A stretch of DNA of 64,000 nt from positions 1 to 64,000 of the forward strand of contig NZ_NFKI01000015.1 in the NCBI RefSeq assembly GCF_002160305.1. The letters run 5' to 3'. Below the pieces are notes generated by a model. The model had not been told where the DNA came from. It saw only the letters and a list, made by a program, of their open reading frames with translations, and did no database searches. Position 1 is the stretch's first letter. Each line of letters starts with the position of its first letter. The position numbers were made by a program, and so were the translations under genes. Positions 6,606-13,462 of the stretch are shown here, one piece after another. The DNA is from Pseudoflavonifractor sp. An184. GTDB taxonomy: Bacteria; Bacillota; Clostridia; Oscillospirales; Oscillospiraceae.

Positions 6606-7838
6606 ATGATGGAAATTAGCCTTAATATGTACCATGCCGTAGCGCTTGGTGCTGTTCTGTTCTGGATCGGCGGCGTCATCACCGATAAGGTGAGCGTCCT
6701 GAACCGCTATTGTATCCCCGCTCCCCTGGTGGGCGGCCTGCTGTTCTCGATCATCAACTGCATCCTGACCGTCAGCGGCGTGGCCAGCATCACCTTTGAC
6801 GGCACTCTGCAGACGGTGTTCCAGAACCTGTTCTTCACCACCGTCGGCTTCACCGTCAGCATCCCCGCTCTGCTCCGCGGCGGCAAGTCCGTGGTTCTGG
6901 TCCTGATTCTGTCCATTATTATGATCCCCATCCAGAATGCTCTGGGCGGCGGCATCATGCTGGCCTTCGGCCAGGATCCCCTCATCGGCATCGGCATCGG
7001 CTCCACCGCTCTGATCGGCGGCCCCGCCACTGCCGCGGCCTATGGTCCTGAGCTGGTAAAGGCCGGCGCCCCTGCCGGCGCCGACGTGGCCGCTCTGGCG
7101 GCCGCCACCTTCGGCCTGGTCTCCGGCTCCCTGATGGGCGGCCCGGTGGCCCGCAGCCTGATCGTCAAGCACAACCTGCGCTCCACTGAGGGCCATGCGG
7201 CTGCGGCCAAGAGTGCTGAGACTCTGGCTGCCGACGTGGCCGGCGAGGATGAGTCCTTCACCTCCGCCAGCCCCCGCTTCGTCAAGGGCTTCATGCTCCT
7301 GCTGGCCGCTCTGGGCATCGGCGCTCAGATCAGCGTGTGGCTGACCGACCTGACCGGTCTGACCTTCCCCTCCTACATCGGCGCCATGCTCACCGCCGTG
7401 GTCATCCGCAACGTGATGATCGCCGTGAAGGTGGAGTATCCCGACCAGGAGATCGACACCATGGGCACCATGTTCCTGTCCATCTTCCTGGCCCTGGCTC
7501 TGTCCAGCCTGAAGCTGTGGGAGCTGGTCGACCTGGCTCTGCCCATGATTATCTGCCTGCTGCTGCAGTGCGTGGTCATGGTCATCTTCTCCTACTTCGT
7601 GGTGTTCAACGTCATGGGCCGCGACTACGAGGCCGCCGTCATGTCCGCCGGCTTCATCGGCTTCGCCATGGGCGCGACTTCCAACGCCATGGCCAACATG
7701 CAGGTGGTCACCAAGAAGTATGGCCCCGCTCCGGTCGCCTACTTCGCCATCCCCATGGTTGGCGGTATGTTCATCGACTTCTTCAATGCGGTGCTCATCA
7801 CCTTCAACATCAATCTGTTTGTGGATATGTTCCACTAA
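6606..7838 (+). CDS. gltS: GltS family sodium/glutamate symporter
   Basis: Predicted Na+-coupled glutamate uptake carrier of the inner membrane. The 410-residue protein has about ten to twelve hydrophobic segments in two inverted halves, with family signatures CIPAPLVGGLLFS near residue 35, GIGSTALIGGPATAAAYGP near 125-145, and a matching second-half GFIGFAMGATSNAMANM near 355. It uses more GCT/TCC-type codons than its neighbours, as for a well-expressed gene. AAGG lies 11 bases before the ATG. Monocistronic between two terminators. Close relatives could carry other dicarboxylic amino acids. Confidence 0.9.
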   Translation: MMEISLNMYHAVALGAVLFWIGGVITDKVSVLNRYCIPAPLVGGLLFSIINCILTVSGVASITFDGTLQTVFQNLFFTTVGFTVSIPALLRGGKSVVLVLILSIIMIPIQNALGGGIMLAFGQDPLIGIGIGSTALIGGPATAAAYGPELVKAGAPAGADVAALAAATFGLVSGSLMGGPVARSLIVKHNLRSTEGHAAAAKSAETLAADVAGEDESFTSASPRFVKGFMLLLAALGIGAQISVWLTDLTGLTFPSYIGAMLTAVVIRNVMIAVKVEYPDQEIDTMGTMFLSIFLALALSSLKLWELVDLALPMIICLLLQCVVMVIFSYFVVFNVMGRDYEAAVMSAGFIGFAMGATSNAMANMQVVTKKYGPAPVAYFAIPMVGGMFIDFFNAVLITFNINLFVDMFH

Positions 7839-7893: not shown

Positions 7894-8131
7894 ATGCCGG
7901 AAACTTTGGCCTGCCTGGCGGGCGGCGCATGACGGCGCGCGCACCTCCCCTCTCGAAGAGCGGCGCGGACAAGCGGCGAACGTCAGACAGCGCCGGCCCA
8001 AGGGGGCCGGGAAGTGCGGGCCTCTCCGCAAAGGGGCGGGCGCGCGAAACGGCCTCTGGAATCGGCGATTCCAGAGGCCGTTTCACATTTGCGGGCGGCG
8101 GTTCCCGCCGGGGACGCGGGGGGATGGGGGA

Positions 8132-8452
8132 CTAGATCTTTTCAAACTGGGTCACGTCGGATACGAACAGGGTGGCCCCGCCCACCGTGACCTCAGTGGG
8201 GTAGGGGGCGGACGGCGTGGCCAGCTGCACATTGGAGGAGATCTTCTCCGTCCGGCGGGAGCAGTGCTCCCGGATGATGGAGATGGCCTGGGGCACCCGC
8301 TCCTCCGGGGTGCCGATGAGCAGGGTGGTGTTTCCGCCGGTGAGGAAGCCGCCCGTGGAGGACATGCGGGTGAAGTAGTAGCCCGCCTCGGTGAGGGCGG
8401 CGCACACCTCGCCGCTGTCCCGCTTGTTGATAATTGCCGTGATCATTTTCAT
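8132..8452 (-). CDS. darA: Possible separately translated c-di-AMP receptor (nested in fusion)
   Basis: Same frame as the end of the MATE fusion. From the ATG at 8452, 106 residues match stand-alone DarA, which is about 109 residues in Bacillus. AAAGGAG ends 8 bases upstream of this ATG inside the MATE coding sequence, so internal initiation is expected. This suggests an ancestral two-gene operon in which the MATE stop codon was lost, or where both products are made. DarA binds c-di-AMP as a trimer in the cytoplasm; its downstream targets are poorly known. Confidence 0.65.
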   Translation of the reverse strand: MKMITAIINKRDSGEVCAALTEAGYYFTRMSSTGGFLTGGNTTLLIGTPEERVPQAISIIREHCSRRTEKISSNVQLATPSAPYPTEVTVGGATLFVSDVTQFEKI

Positions 8453-9817
8453 AACAACTGCTCCTTTGCGCCGGGCGGTCTGCGCGGCCTGCTCCAGCCG
8501 TCCCCAGATGTGGACGCGCCGGGCGTAGAAAATCAAGCCGAGGGTGCCGGTTATGACCTCCGCAATGGGGAAGGCAAACCAGGCATAGGACAGGTCGATG
8601 CGGGAGAAGAACCAGAATACGGGGATCAGGCAGAAGATCTGCCGGGTCAGAGAGAGGAGGATGCTGGGCAGCGCCGCCCCGATGGCCTGGAAGAACACCG
8701 GGAAGATCAGGGAGAGCACCGCGGGCAGAAAGCTCAGGCCGATGATGTGGAAGGCGTGGGTCCCGATGGCAAAGACCTCCGGCTCTGAGGTGAACAGCCC
8801 CAGAAGCTGTGCCGGGATCAGTTCAAAGCAGGCGATCCCCACCAGCATAAACACCATGGCCAGTACAATGGAGTCCTTTACCACCCGCTGGCAGCGGGAG
8901 TAGGTCCCCTTGGCGTAGGTGTAGCTCAGCAGGGGGACGATGCAGGTCTGAAGGCCGTTGAGGGGGATGAAGAAGAAGGACTGGACCTTGTAGTACAGAC
9001 CCAGGACGGTGACGGCCGCGTCGGAGAAGCCCGCCAGGATCAGATTCAGAGCCATGATGTACACGGTAAAGAGCATCTGCATGAAGATGGAGGGGTAGCC
9101 CAGCTGATAGATCCGGGCCGCGTAGGCCAGAAACAGCCTGGGGGCCGGGGGCCTGCGGAATCCGGAGGAGACGATCACCGCCGCCAGCACCTGACCGGCC
9201 ACGGTGGCGTAGGCCGCCCCGGCCACCCCCAGCTCCGGGATGGGCCCCAGCCCGAAGATCAGAAGGGGGTCCAGCACAATGTTGGTGAGGGCGCCGGCGA
9301 TCTGGGCCGCCATGGGCAGGCGCATGTTGCCCCGGGCCTGGTGCACCTTGCTCCAGTTGCTCTCCAGAAATACGCCGAGGCTGCCCACGCAGACGATCAT
9401 GCCGTAGGTGACGGTGTACTCCGCCACAGCGGGGGTATCGGTGGAGGAGAGGGCGAAGGGCCGCATCAGAAGGGCGCTGAGCAGGGCGAACACCGCCCAG
9501 CTGAACAGGGCCAGCACGGTGCCCATTCCGGCGGTGCGGTCCGCCGTATGGTGCTTTCCCCGCCCGTCCAGATGGGACATCAGGGTGTTGACGCCCACGC
9601 CGGTCCCCACCGCGATGGCGGTGACGATGAGCTGCACCGGGTAGATGATGGACAGGGCGGTCAGGCCGTCGTTGGAGTACTGGCCCACAAAGTAGCTGTC
9701 CACAATGTTGTACATGGCCTGGATCAGCTGGGCCAGCATGACAGGGGGCGCGATCCGCAGCAGGATGGCCCAAATGCTCTCTGTATCAAAAAGACTGTCG
9801 GCAGAACGGGTTTTCAT
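8132..9817 (-). CDS. MATE efflux transporter fused to a DarA-type c-di-AMP receptor domain
   Basis: One uninterrupted 561-residue frame. Residues about 1-445 are a MATE-family cation antiporter (SIWAILLRIAPPVMLAQLIQAMYNIVDSYFVGQ, then twelve hydrophobic segments). Residues 456-561 match the whole of DarA/PstA (PII-like c-di-AMP receptor): KMITAIINKRDS, TGGFLTGGNTTLLIGT and PYPTEVTVGGATLFV. The linker RRKGAVVMKM is encoded by AAAGGAGCAGTTGTT-ATG, a full ribosome site, so free DarA could also be made from an internal start at 8452. The start at 9817 has CAGGAGT upstream; an earlier in-frame ATG at 9889 is unlikely. The promoter at 9908-9936 is consensus. MATE substrates vary (drugs, flavins) and none can be assigned. 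Confidence 0.88.
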   Translation of the reverse strand: MKTRSADSLFDTESIWAILLRIAPPVMLAQLIQAMYNIVDSYFVGQYSNDGLTALSIIYPVQLIVTAIAVGTGVGVNTLMSHLDGRGKHHTADRTAGMGTVLALFSWAVFALLSALLMRPFALSSTDTPAVAEYTVTYGMIVCVGSLGVFLESNWSKVHQARGNMRLPMAAQIAGALTNIVLDPLLIFGLGPIPELGVAGAAYATVAGQVLAAVIVSSGFRRPPAPRLFLAYAARIYQLGYPSIFMQMLFTVYIMALNLILAGFSDAAVTVLGLYYKVQSFFFIPLNGLQTCIVPLLSYTYAKGTYSRCQRVVKDSIVLAMVFMLVGIACFELIPAQLLGLFTSEPEVFAIGTHAFHIIGLSFLPAVLSLIFPVFFQAIGAALPSILLSLTRQIFCLIPVFWFFSRIDLSYAWFAFPIAEVITGTLGLIFYARRVHIWGRLEQAAQTARRKGAVVMKMITAIINKRDSGEVCAALTEAGYYFTRMSSTGGFLTGGNTTLLIGTPEERVPQAISIIREHCSRRTEKISSNVQLATPSAPYPTEVTVGGATLFVSDVTQFEKI

Positions 9818-9856: not shown

Positions 9857-9936
9857 AATGGGCGGCGGCCGCCGCATCCGATTCTTCAAACAGGATTTGC
9901 GGGCAAGATTATAGTGGGCCGCCGCCCATTTGTCAA
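9857..9936 (-). promoter_or_regulatory. Consensus promoter with spaced inverted repeat, MATE-DarA gene
   Basis: Minus strand: TTGACA (9936-9931), 17-base spacer, TATAAT (9913-9908). A 15-base inverted repeat has one arm in the promoter spacer (AAATGGGCGGCGGCC) and its exact complement at 9857-9871 in the 5' UTR. It could be a paired operator or a leader hairpin. Confidence 0.85.
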
Positions 9937-9988: not shown

Positions 9989-12900
9989 TCACATGGGCGG
10001 CTGAGTCTGCTCCGGGGAGGGAAACAGACCCTCGGCCAGAGCGGCGGCCCAGGTCTGGTCCCAGGCGTGCCCCTCCAGGCTCCCGGCCTCCACGCCGAAG
10101 CACTGGAAGCCGTAGGCGGCCCGGCCCCGGTCGCTGGTGGGGTCGAAGTAGAGCCACTGTCCGTCGATTTGGGCCAGGTCCCACATGTGGTTTTCCGCCC
10201 CCAGCTTCCCGCTGACGGTGACACAGGGGATGCCCGCCTGTTCCAGCAGCAGCTGGAACGCCTGGGCATAGCCCCCGCAGATGGCCAGACCGTCGTGGAG
10301 GGCCCCGTAGGCGGTGGTGGAGTCGTAGGGCATCTCGCCGGGCGCGCCGTAGTAGCGGAAGTCATAGCGCACCTGCTCGGTCAGGTAGGTATACAGTGCC
10401 TGCGCCTGCTCCCGCTGGCTCATCTCAGGGGTGACTGTCTCCCCATAAATCTGCTCCGCCAGGGCGTCCAGCTCCGCCAGCCGCGCCAGGGCCTGCTGGC
10501 GGGTCAGCCCGCCCTGGGGCGTCACCGTGACGGCCGTCCCGTCCCGGCTGAGCTGGCAGAGGAGGTAGCTCCCACCCACCTGCTGGAGCGCCTTGTTCAT
10601 GTGGTCTACTAGCAACTCAGGATCGGTGATGCGGATGGGAATGCTCTCCTGCGCCAATCCATCCCGCGCCGCCTGCACCAGGCCGGCCAGGGAGCCCACC
10701 TCCGTCCCCTGGAAGCCCTTCGGATAGTCCCCGGTGCGGTAGGGCATATAGGAGATGGTGCAGCGGAGCAGGCCGTCCGCCCCCAACTCCGCGTTTAAAT
10801 CGTAGGCGTAGCTGTAAGTCCGGTTGCCGGACAAAATGCCGTAGTAGAGATTTTTTACCGCCAGTGGAAGCTCCTCCTGTCCGCCCAGCACGGACACGTC
10901 AAAGGCAGGGGGCTGCTCCGCCGCCGCGATGGCCCGGGTCAGTTCCTCCCGGAGCTCCTCCAGGCTGGCCACCGCAGGAGCCCCGGTCTCCGGCTGCTCC
11001 GGAGCCGGGCCGGCGGAGGGGGCCTCCTCCGGCCAGTCCAGCCCCAAATCCTGCCGGATGGCGGAGCGCAGGGCCGTCATATTCGGGTCGGCCCAGAAGA
11101 AGCGCAGCTTCTCCTCGGCCACCGTGTCCCCCTGGGGAACATCGCCCAGCACAAAGACGGCGAAGGTGTCGGCGATGTCCTCGTGGAAGTAGTTGGCCCC
11201 GTACCGGCTCACATAGCGGGTGGGGTTGGCCTCGTAGTCCCCCACGCCGGTGTCCCCCAGCCCGCTCCAGAAGGCATCATAAAAGTTCTTCCGGAAGGAG
11301 CCCTCCACAAAGGCGGCCGGGTCGTGGGTGCCGGCGCCCCTGCTCAGGTCAATCTGGGTCTCGTCCTCCAGCAGGACGTGGCCGTACTCGTGGAGAATGG
11401 TGTAGGTCAGCTTGCTCCAGTCCCGCTTTTCCCCGTTCTCGTCGTACACGTCGTAGTAGTCGATGCTGATGGAGAAGCGGGTGTTGTCGGTGACGTCCCC
11501 CTCCTTGACCGGGGAGGTGTAGGCCAGGATATTGCTGGCGCCGTCGGTGAACAGGTTGAACTCCGCGATCTTCTGCCGGGCCTCCAGGGGGAGGATGGAG
11601 CACAGGAAGTCCCACACCGCCCGGTCCTCCGGGTCGGAGATGCCGGCCTGGCCGCCGCTCACCGGGTAGGAGGCGAGCACGTTGGTGATGCCCAGGCTGT
11701 AATTGCCCACGGAGACCAGACATCCCTCCTCGTCAGAGGAGAGGGTGATGTACTTGCTGTATGCCGGGTCGGCCCAGCTGGCCTGGCCCCCCTCCTCCCG
11801 CTCCGGCGCGCCGTACATGGCCTCAATCAGCCCCCGCACCTCCTCCGGGGGATAGCCGGTCTCCTCCGGGCGGATGGCAATGCGCTCCAAAAAGCCGTTG
11901 CGGTACTGGTAGTAGGTGTTCATGGGGGTCTCCCCGTCAAACCAGCGCATGGAGTAGCGGTAGGTCTCATAGGCGTCGGTCCAGCCGTCTCCGGAGACCT
12001 CCCAGCTGTCCGCCGGCTCCCCGGCCGCGCCGATGTAGGCCTCGGTGTCCGCGCGGGAGCTGCTGAAATAGATGACGTTCTGCCGGGTCTGGCGGTAGGT
12101 GTACCCCTCCCCCTGCGCCCGGGCCAGTTCCCGGTAGGAGGCGGTATCCGGGGAGCAGACCTCCTCCGCCGCCTCCACCGCCGTCTCCGCCGCGGAGGCG
12201 ATGGCGTACAGGTCCAGCTGGTCCGCCGTGTCCGCCGCCGAGTGGTACAGATAGCCCTCCCCGTTCTGCATCAGCAGGACGGAGGGGACTCCGGCCAGCT
12301 GGAAAGAGGCGTGGTCGCTGGCCGTCTCCGCCCCCCGCGCCAGGGACGGGTCCTTCTCCTGGAGCAGGCCGCTGACCCAGTTGGCCTCCCCGTCCATGGT
12401 ACACACCAGGGTGCCGTCCGAGCCCAGGCCGCCCAGCATGTCAAACTGGATGTCGCCGATCATCCGGTCCTTCTCCTCCTCCGACAGGGAGGCGGTGTAG
12501 GCCCGGGAGCCGTTTTTGCCGTTCTCCTCGTCGGTGAAGCTGACAAAGCGCACCTGGGTGTCGGTGGGCACATCCTTCAGGGCCTGGGCCGCATACAGCA
12601 GGGCGGCCACACCGGAGGCGTTGTCGTTGGCCCCGTAGGCGGTGGGCACGCTGTCGTGGTGGGCGGACAGGATCAGAATATCCGCGTCGGGGGAGGCGGC
12701 CTCCTTCACGGCGACCACATTGTGCCCGGAGCGGCCCTGGCTGTCGGTATAGGGCTGGAGGGTGACTTGATAGCCCATCTCCTCGAACCGCCCCTTCAGA
12801 TATTGCACAGCGTCCGCCTCCCCCTGGGAGCCCACAGGCCGGTGGGCCGCCGTGAGGGCCTCCAGATCGGTTCGAAGCTGGCTCACATCGGGCAGGGAGC

Positions 12901-13462
12901 GGGCCTGCTCCAGCATCACCAGGGCCTCCGCCGTGGTGATGGTCCCTGCGGGGGCCAGCTGGTCCGCCACGCGCCCCGACATCACCCCCGCCTGGAGGCA
13001 CCAGAGCACCGGCTCCCGGGCCCACTCGGCCACGCTCCCCGCGTCCCGGAACCGGGAGAGCCCCTGGGCCGCTGTCTCCGGCGAGCCGGCCTGCCGCCAG
13101 AGGATAGCGGCGAACTCCTGCCGGGTCACCGGCCGGTCCGGCGCAAAGGTCCCGTCCCCCACGCCGGAGAGACAGCCCTCCGCCGCCGCCCAGGTCACCG
13201 CGCTGGAATACTCTCCGGACACGTCGGAGAAGGGGCAGGTCCCGGAGACGGCGGGACGCCCCGCCGCCTCGTAGAGCAGCTGGGCCGCCATCCCCCGGGT
13301 GACAGTTTTCCCAGGGACGGCCAGGAGGTCCCGGCTGATGGAGGCCTCCCGGCCCCAGGACAGCGCCTCCTCCGCCCACTGGGGCCAGTCCGCCGCGGGA
13401 GCCGCCAGCCCCGGCGGGACCATCAGGGCGCCGCACAGCAGCAGGGCAAACAGCCGCTTCAT
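9989..13462 (-). CDS. Exported SLH / M28 peptidase / HEXXH / transglutaminase-like protein
   Basis: A 1157-residue secreted or wall-attached protein. Residues 1-21 are a signal peptide. About 25-190 contain SLH-like repeats (CPFSDVSGEYSSAVTWAAAEGCLSGVGDGTFAPDRPVTRQEFAAIL). About 195-435 form an M28 zinc aminopeptidase: H268 and D270, bridging D280, catalytic E312 with ligand E313, D341 and H407 are all present. The middle holds a second metal motif, HEYGH at 691-695, with a likely third ligand E761 in EDIADTFAVF. A Pro/Ala/Glu-rich linker (811-830) leads to a transglutaminase-like domain with Cys1062, His1092 and Asp1107 as triad. GAGGTGAT precedes the ATG. Probably a surface protein-processing enzyme; substrate unknown. 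Confidence 0.88.
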   Translation of the reverse strand: MKRLFALLLCGALMVPPGLAAPAADWPQWAEEALSWGREASISRDLLAVPGKTVTRGMAAQLLYEAAGRPAVSGTCPFSDVSGEYSSAVTWAAAEGCLSGVGDGTFAPDRPVTRQEFAAILWRQAGSPETAAQGLSRFRDAGSVAEWAREPVLWCLQAGVMSGRVADQLAPAGTITTAEALVMLEQARSLPDVSQLRTDLEALTAAHRPVGSQGEADAVQYLKGRFEEMGYQVTLQPYTDSQGRSGHNVVAVKEAASPDADILILSAHHDSVPTAYGANDNASGVAALLYAAQALKDVPTDTQVRFVSFTDEENGKNGSRAYTASLSEEEKDRMIGDIQFDMLGGLGSDGTLVCTMDGEANWVSGLLQEKDPSLARGAETASDHASFQLAGVPSVLLMQNGEGYLYHSAADTADQLDLYAIASAAETAVEAAEEVCSPDTASYRELARAQGEGYTYRQTRQNVIYFSSSRADTEAYIGAAGEPADSWEVSGDGWTDAYETYRYSMRWFDGETPMNTYYQYRNGFLERIAIRPEETGYPPEEVRGLIEAMYGAPEREEGGQASWADPAYSKYITLSSDEEGCLVSVGNYSLGITNVLASYPVSGGQAGISDPEDRAVWDFLCSILPLEARQKIAEFNLFTDGASNILAYTSPVKEGDVTDNTRFSISIDYYDVYDENGEKRDWSKLTYTILHEYGHVLLEDETQIDLSRGAGTHDPAAFVEGSFRKNFYDAFWSGLGDTGVGDYEANPTRYVSRYGANYFHEDIADTFAVFVLGDVPQGDTVAEEKLRFFWADPNMTALRSAIRQDLGLDWPEEAPSAGPAPEQPETGAPAVASLEELREELTRAIAAAEQPPAFDVSVLGGQEELPLAVKNLYYGILSGNRTYSYAYDLNAELGADGLLRCTISYMPYRTGDYPKGFQGTEVGSLAGLVQAARDGLAQESIPIRITDPELLVDHMNKALQQVGGSYLLCQLSRDGTAVTVTPQGGLTRQQALARLAELDALAEQIYGETVTPEMSQREQAQALYTYLTEQVRYDFRYYGAPGEMPYDSTTAYGALHDGLAICGGYAQAFQLLLEQAGIPCVTVSGKLGAENHMWDLAQIDGQWLYFDPTSDRGRAAYGFQCFGVEAGSLEGHAWDQTWAAALAEGLFPSPEQTQPPM

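Follow-up and report, generated by a model that had tools for sequence, protein, structure and literature searches.

A single gene of Pseudoflavonifractor sp. An184 joins a full MATE transporter of the DinF-like kind in frame to a DarA/PstA receptor domain for c-di-AMP. The stop-free joint was found in a small set of gut bacteria, at least 13 genomes (the source genome included), with 64-99% identity to the protein of the window, by which is meant the whole 64-kb stretch of DNA analysed, and 12 of the 13 genes are intact. The reading towards which we lean on balance is that of a c-di-AMP-responsive DinF-like MATE exporter, in which one gene would give two products and the tethered DarA would complete its trimer with free DarA. 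The interpretation offered in a preliminary description of this DNA, a second-messenger-gated MATE exporter with free DarA also made from an inner start, is partly supported.

The fusion gene and its surroundings

The frame of 561 codons without a stop reported in the preliminary description was confirmed in its coordinates, its joint and both its domains by a frame check and by Pfam (Table 1). It begins with an ATG at 9817, the stop codon ends at 8132 and there are no inner stops. The joint reads CGC AAA GGA GCA GTT GTT ATG, i.e. R-K-G-A-V-V-M (AAAGGAGCAGTTGTT-ATG in the DNA). MatE matched the first part in two stretches, the better being residues 25-185 (E 2.2e-42, 145 bits against a cut-off of 24.9), and the NCBIfam matE model scored 165.4 bits, above its cut-off of 147.4. 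CdAMP_rec (PF06153) matched residues 456-561 over the whole profile (1-109 of 109; E 8.3e-30, 103.6 bits against a Pfam cut-off of 27). Because the DarA half scored 103.2 bits against the NCBIfam DarA equivalog cut-off of 140, it is filed as what its sequence indicates, a relative of DarA and not a strict equivalog. A sequence search of the PDB placed the first part closest to the MATE BH2163 (DinF-BH; E 1.1e-39) and the second closest to Listeria PstA (Lmo2692; E 5.6e-24).

Table 1. Features of the MATE-DarA locus, in positions of the window
Feature	Position	Strand	Basis
MATE-DarA fusion gene, 561 codons and stop	8132..9817	-	Frame, Pfam, 12 further genomes
MATE transporter part, residues 1-440 (MatE, DinF-like)	8498..9817	-	Pfam, NCBIfam, PDB match, model, Foldseek
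Linker, variable	8453..8497	-	Alignment; in the model the last helix continues to residue 452, pLDDT about 70
Shine-Dalgarno-like AAAGGAG, 8 nt 5' of the inner ATG	8461..8467	-	Sequence comparison
DarA/PstA c-di-AMP receptor domain, 106 aa (456-561), own ATG; presumed free second product	8132..8452	-	Pfam, PDB match, contact residues
Promoter-like TTGACA-17 nt-TATAAT, 12 of 12 matches	9908..9936	-	Consensus match only
Hairpin, 20 bp, 3-nt loop, directly 3' of the stop, without a T run	8044..8086	-	-37.6 kcal/mol, z -8.5

Perfect TTGACA-17-TATAAT sites occur three times in the 64-kb window and were absent from 100 shuffles. The hairpin behind the gene is a possible terminator; a simple terminator scan gave no terminator call for it. 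The neighbours of the fusion are a convergent gene for a sodium/glutamate symporter (6606-7838, +) and a gene (9989-13462, -) whose product combines S-layer homology, M28 peptidase and transglutaminase domains. When eight loci were compared for operon partners, flanking frames matched in one pair only, the window and L074, which is nearly identical to it. At another locus (L076:547-4773) three MATE genes in a row lie directly upstream of the fusion, making four in tandem.

Distribution and conservation

Among the 64 genomes of the genus that were searched, a MATE at least 54% identical was found in nine. Six of these nine were fused to DarA (in the source genome, G030, G060, G037, G038 and G005), two (G023, G035) were joined to a kinase-like domain and one (G029) ended alone. 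A draw of 400 genomes from the family gave a close MATE (E up to 1e-110) in eight, with the fusion in three of the eight (the source genome, G005 and G411, the last from another genus). A named genome collection was also scanned with an alignment of six fusion members, and the best 80 of 125 confirmed relatives were kept. Reading the MATE frames of the fetched loci to their stops gave 15 fusion loci in 12 genomes, with duplicate ids for the same contig in the pairs L009/L074, L010/L077 and L012/L078. Identity to the window protein was 99% in Pseudoflavonifractor capillosus An827, 83% in Oscillibacter valericigenes An411, 81% in Candidatus Oscillibacter pullicola, 72% in a MAG named Candidatus Blautia intestinigallinarum, 69% in Anaeromassilibacillus sp. 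An250 and 64% in Clostridia bacterium UC5.1-1E11. A protein-level search of plasmid records added a 13th member, 65% identical (L219, WP_213543713.1), carried by pMM59_01, a 504-kb plasmid from Pusillibacter faecalis MM59 that is predicted to be conjugative. On this plasmid the fusion (NZ_AP023421.1:7249-8934) lies directly upstream of one gene for a DNA methylase and another for a putative restriction endonuclease.

The linker from the conserved Trp to the Met measures 17-19 codons in 12 genomes, those of L012, L079 and L093 differing from 18 by whole codons, and it is open in all 13 (the 13th being the plasmid member), with neither a stop nor a frame shift. The stop-less junction first noticed in the window therefore holds wherever the fusion was found, and the stop codon in relatives that would have refuted the preliminary description did not turn up. 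Since linkers vary by whole codons and stay open, the through-frame and the inner start both appear to be conserved. One MAG (L077, the same contig as L010) carries a deletion close to the C-terminus of DarA that puts the gene out of frame, and the conserved GGAT and Phe99 are gone. The closest MATEs that lack DarA (L081, L082, L069) reach a stop 6 to 14 codons past the corresponding place. No DarA remnants were found near 12 DarA-less MATE relatives, several of which have little or no DNA behind the MATE. Of 56 pattern matches among viral contigs, none encodes a relative. A class-level search of 391 genomes for long DarA frames gave none above 219 codons among the matches listed, which are those with the better scores and omit even the source genome's own fusion, so that weaker-scoring fusions could be missed.

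Origin of the fusion

Phylogenetic analysis was carried out on both halves. The MATE tree was built from 61 MATEs of sufficient length with identities above 45%, without duplicate contigs and L219. Twelve fused MATEs fell into one group of 14 (support 96/82) together with two that lack DarA. The fusion label requires at least two changes on this tree; a single fused clade was not rejected (AU p 0.342). Of the 13 fused domains, 10 entered the DarA tree of 75 rows (L076, L077 and L219 omitted), for which the program warned of few columns and of long branches elsewhere. There the 10 fused domains form one clade (support 100/99), apart from 61 free-standing DarA, from the second DarA of the source genome, from that of L085 and from the Listeria and B. 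subtilis proteins. These results are best accounted for by one old fusion event followed by transfer between genomes, in which plasmids may have had a part.

The inner translation start

Met456, the first residue of the DarA half, is conserved in 13 of 13 members, and in the stretch that leads to it from the last conserved Trp six aligned proteins have only Lys451 and Gly452 (AAA GGA) in common. The Shine-Dalgarno-like site is AAAGGAG in nine of 12 genomes; the others have CAAGGAGAT (L080, with Gln for Lys), AAAGGACGT (L013) and AAGGGGGAC (L093), and the plasmid member has AAGGGAGAG. Codon tests, done after the pairing-energy test described below, used nine representatives, the near copies L074, L077 and L076 being omitted; as the nine are related, the codon counts are not independent. 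Gly at position -4 is encoded by GGA in eight of the nine, and of 36 columns with Gly in at least eight it is the sole one with a single codon in at least eight. The share of GGA among the Gly codons of GC-rich fusion genes is 10-20%. Lys at -5 is AAA in seven of the nine. In five GC-rich genes (GC3 0.84-0.92) the five codons 5' of Met456 have a GC3 of 0.20, the minimum among 554 windows, and the next-lowest windows either overlap that of the inner start or lie at the start of the gene. The plasmid member shows no GC3 dip before its inner Met.

Pairing with the anti-Shine-Dalgarno sequence was compared among the in-frame inner ATGs. In nine of 12 genes no other inner ATG equals the DarA start, and in three one does. 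The DarA starts of the nine representatives have values of -6.3 to -10.5; among 128 further in-frame ATGs inside these genes, 12 reach -6.3 or better and five reach -7.9 or better. When codons were shuffled synonymously with the amino acids fixed, the pairing energy was not significant (Fisher p 0.14 over the nine representatives), because Lys-Gly codons pair with the anti-Shine-Dalgarno sequence anyway. Local folding at the inner start was not unusually open (z -1.2). The inner ribosome site proposed in the preliminary description seems unlikely to be due to chance: the Met and the codon choice are conserved, even if the pairing-energy test gives it no support.

These mixed results bear on the reading that the fusion is real and responsive to c-di-AMP and that its inner start is unused, Met and Lys-Gly being kept for the protein and the 561-residue chain being the only product. 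The pairing energy and the local folding agree with it, the Met may be structural since the first DarA strand of the model begins at Met456, and start-like codons also occur near the joint in MATE-kinase fusions (three of the six scored have a GTG no more than 17 codons from the kinase motif). Protein needs do not, however, explain the conserved silent positions (GGA and AT-ending codons), nor the retention of AAGGAG in L080 despite the change of Lys to Gln, and in none of the six MATE-kinase fusions scored out of 15 does an ATG lie within 17 codons of the joint. We consider an unused inner start unlikely. Because conserved silent positions do not serve the protein, a selected translation start is suggested; the codon pattern speaks for an inner start under selection, and the gene probably yields both MATE-DarA and free DarA.

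The ligand pocket and the supply of c-di-AMP

In the Listeria PstA study (PMC4475381), the contacts with c-di-AMP include Thr28, the Gly35-Phe36-Leu37 turn, Asn41, Gly47, Thr97 and Phe99; binding is weakened by F36A and N41A, and Arg26 is called dispensable. These residues, whose loss would by the preliminary description have refuted it, are mostly kept. In 10 fused sequences T28, G35, F36, L37, G47 and F99 are kept in all 10, and N41 and T97 in nine. The phosphate-contacting His of Listeria PstA (numbered 108 in PMC4475381 and 107 in the chain sequence used) is Glu in all 10; the same exchange occurs in 43 of 61 free-standing relatives and so does not set the fusion apart. The source genome has one diadenylate cyclase domain, for which the best NCBIfam match was CdaA at 157 bits, below the cut-off of 189, the domain piece only being scored. 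With such a domain in the genome, c-di-AMP should be available.

Structure model

AlphaFold2, run with a 40-row alignment, gave a MATE fold with a mean pLDDT of 85 and a pTM of 0.73. The last helix spans residues 415-452, and the strands and helices of DarA begin at 456. Confidence was lower in the linker (441-460, pLDDT about 70) and beyond residue 520 (43-66). The best solved structures in a Foldseek search were MATEs (E 3.5e-18, TM by target length 0.90), DinF-BH (4lz6) among them at 28% identity; no PstA was present among the 50 matches listed, all of which are MATE and MurJ/Wzx-like transporters. Asp40 of the fusion, present in six of six aligned members, aligns with Asp40 of DinF-BH, which we take to be the proton site of that transporter. 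MATE C-termini are cytosolic, and the DarA half would therefore lie on the side where c-di-AMP is found.

Proposed mechanism and alternatives

The computed basis of the favoured reading is the fusion and its conservation, the mostly kept pocket, the codon choice at the inner start and the cyclase domain, and from these we infer the use of the inner start, mixed trimers, binding of c-di-AMP and gating. The full product would be an exporter of the DinF-like MATE type with a last transmembrane helix that extends into a cytosolic DarA, and the second product would be free DarA from the conserved start at the joint. According to two reports, DarA/PstA forms trimers that bind the ligand where subunits adjoin (PMC4475381; PMC12435418), so tethered DarA would most likely complete a trimer with free DarA. 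About three residues separate the last MATE helix from the first DarA strand in the model, and three 12-helix transporters on one DarA trimer may therefore crowd; going by the model, one tethered and two free subunits could relieve this. c-di-AMP bound between subunits would alter their loops, and export would thereby be switched or tuned. The further proposal that a mixed trimer of tethered and free DarA from one gene gates the MATE exporter, and that transporters are the sought targets of free-standing DarA/PstA, is tentative and more likely wrong than right.

A general association of DarA and MATE genes is unsupported. The neighbourhoods of free-standing DarA were surveyed in 63 stretches, of which 62 had a DarA match and many end at contig ends, and a MATE was present in five of the 62 (L155, L185, L206, L207, L210), the random expectation by a rough hand estimate being two to three. 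Because free-standing DarA shows no clear link with MATE, what the fusion teaches about DarA and transporters can be carried elsewhere only hypothetically. In one of the five stretches (L155:3935-7915, contig G000:C46) the second, free-standing DarA of the source genome has two further genes behind it on its strand, first one for a K+/H+ antiporter that has TrkA_C domains and next one for a MATE; by eye a hairpin and a T-rich stretch after DarA seem to part it from the antiporter. None of the other 62 stretches gave a match to this antiporter. At L085:4983-6692 a separate DarA gene lies directly upstream of a MATE gene of the same branch, the frame of which has a TAG shortly after its likely GTG start.

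It may also be supposed that free DarA is the functional receptor and that the fusion is mainly a device for expression or tethering, with MATE and DarA coming from a single message and the MATE not being gated by DarA. The conserved codons at the inner start would agree with this, as would the free-standing form that the DarA half keeps from its first Met on and the closest MATE relatives (L081, L082, L069), which end without DarA. A coupling of two genes would, however, tolerate stops and shifts, and the linkers of all 13 members are open and differ in length by whole codons; moreover the source genome (G000), G005 and G411 also encode a separate free-standing DarA. We judge this explanation improbable. 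That the joint is an artefact, i.e. a stop lost or a frame shifted by an error in an assembly that is indeed a draft of 162 contigs, and with a deletion within DarA of L077 to suggest such errors, has almost no chance of being correct, because the same open joint recurs in 12 further genomes, which include those of isolates and MAGs as well as one named plasmid record (L074-L080, L093, L219).

Comparison with known systems

The DarA half of the fusion resembles DarA/PstA (CdAMP_rec, PF06153) in the whole domain, the first Met, the GGFL turn, Asn41 (in nine of 10), GGA(T/I) and Phe99. Compared with Listeria PstA it has a shorter B-loop and Glu in place of the phosphate-binding His. Known members are free-standing homotrimers with unknown targets according to two articles (PMC7857571, PMC12802241), whereas the DarA of the fusion is joined to a transporter. 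These articles state that the function of DarA and the partners of PstA were unknown in 2021 (PMC7857571) and in December 2025 (PMC12802241). A conserved covalent partner makes the question of the DarA target testable with one purified protein.

The transporter half shares with DinF-type MATEs (BH2163, 4lz6/5c6o) the top PDB sequence match and Asp40, but the chain of BH2163 (446-464 residues) lacks any appended sensor domain. A parallel in layout is provided by MATE-Cytidylate_kin2 fusions (PF01554 + PF13189), in which a MATE relative likewise carries a C-terminal cytosolic domain. A match to one kinase tail identified 15 of them among the 61 MATEs of the tree (L092, L096, L097, L105, L108, L109, L111, L114-L118, L121, L124, L125), and Pfam bore out PF13189 in both that were submitted to it (L092, L117). 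The kinase-fusion label changes several times on the MATE tree, and by sequence this branch of MATEs is one that has gained cytosolic domains repeatedly. Unlike the MATE-DarA joint, those scored in the kinase fusions (six of 15) have no ATG nearby, and three of the six have a GTG. That of L092 stands two codons before the kinase motif with a strong Shine-Dalgarno-like pairing of -9.5, so that an inner start may exist in this fusion as well.

In KtrC, KhtT and OpuCA the receptor for c-di-AMP is an RCK_C or a CBS domain, whereas in the MATE fusion it is DarA. The fusion would be like such ion and osmolyte transporters controlled by c-di-AMP, in which an attached or partner domain often carries the control. 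The binding of c-di-AMP by potassium transporters is described in PMC7857571. No description of a MATE-DarA fusion was found in the literature as judged by titles and abstract openings, a scope outside which most subscription papers fall, and this agrees with the preliminary description, which knew of none; the NCBI name of WP_213543713.1 is 'cyclic-di-AMP receptor' only and omits the MATE half. A transporter with an attached second-messenger receptor is thus of a known kind, and the pairing of DarA with MATE is apparently new.

GlnK differs from the fused DarA in that it binds ATP and is not joined to its transporter. With that difference, PII (GlnK) on AmtB resembles the proposed complex as a trimeric PII-like regulator on a transporter, AmtB being named as a PII target in PMC12435418. 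With its layout, the MATE-DarA gene would offer a simple means of fixing the ratio between tethered and free subunits in an oligomer. SctQ is unrelated to the fusion in sequence and in role, and the likeness of the proposed gene to SctQ/HrcQ of type III secretion lies in an internal start by which one gene is reported to give both a full-length protein and its C-terminal part.
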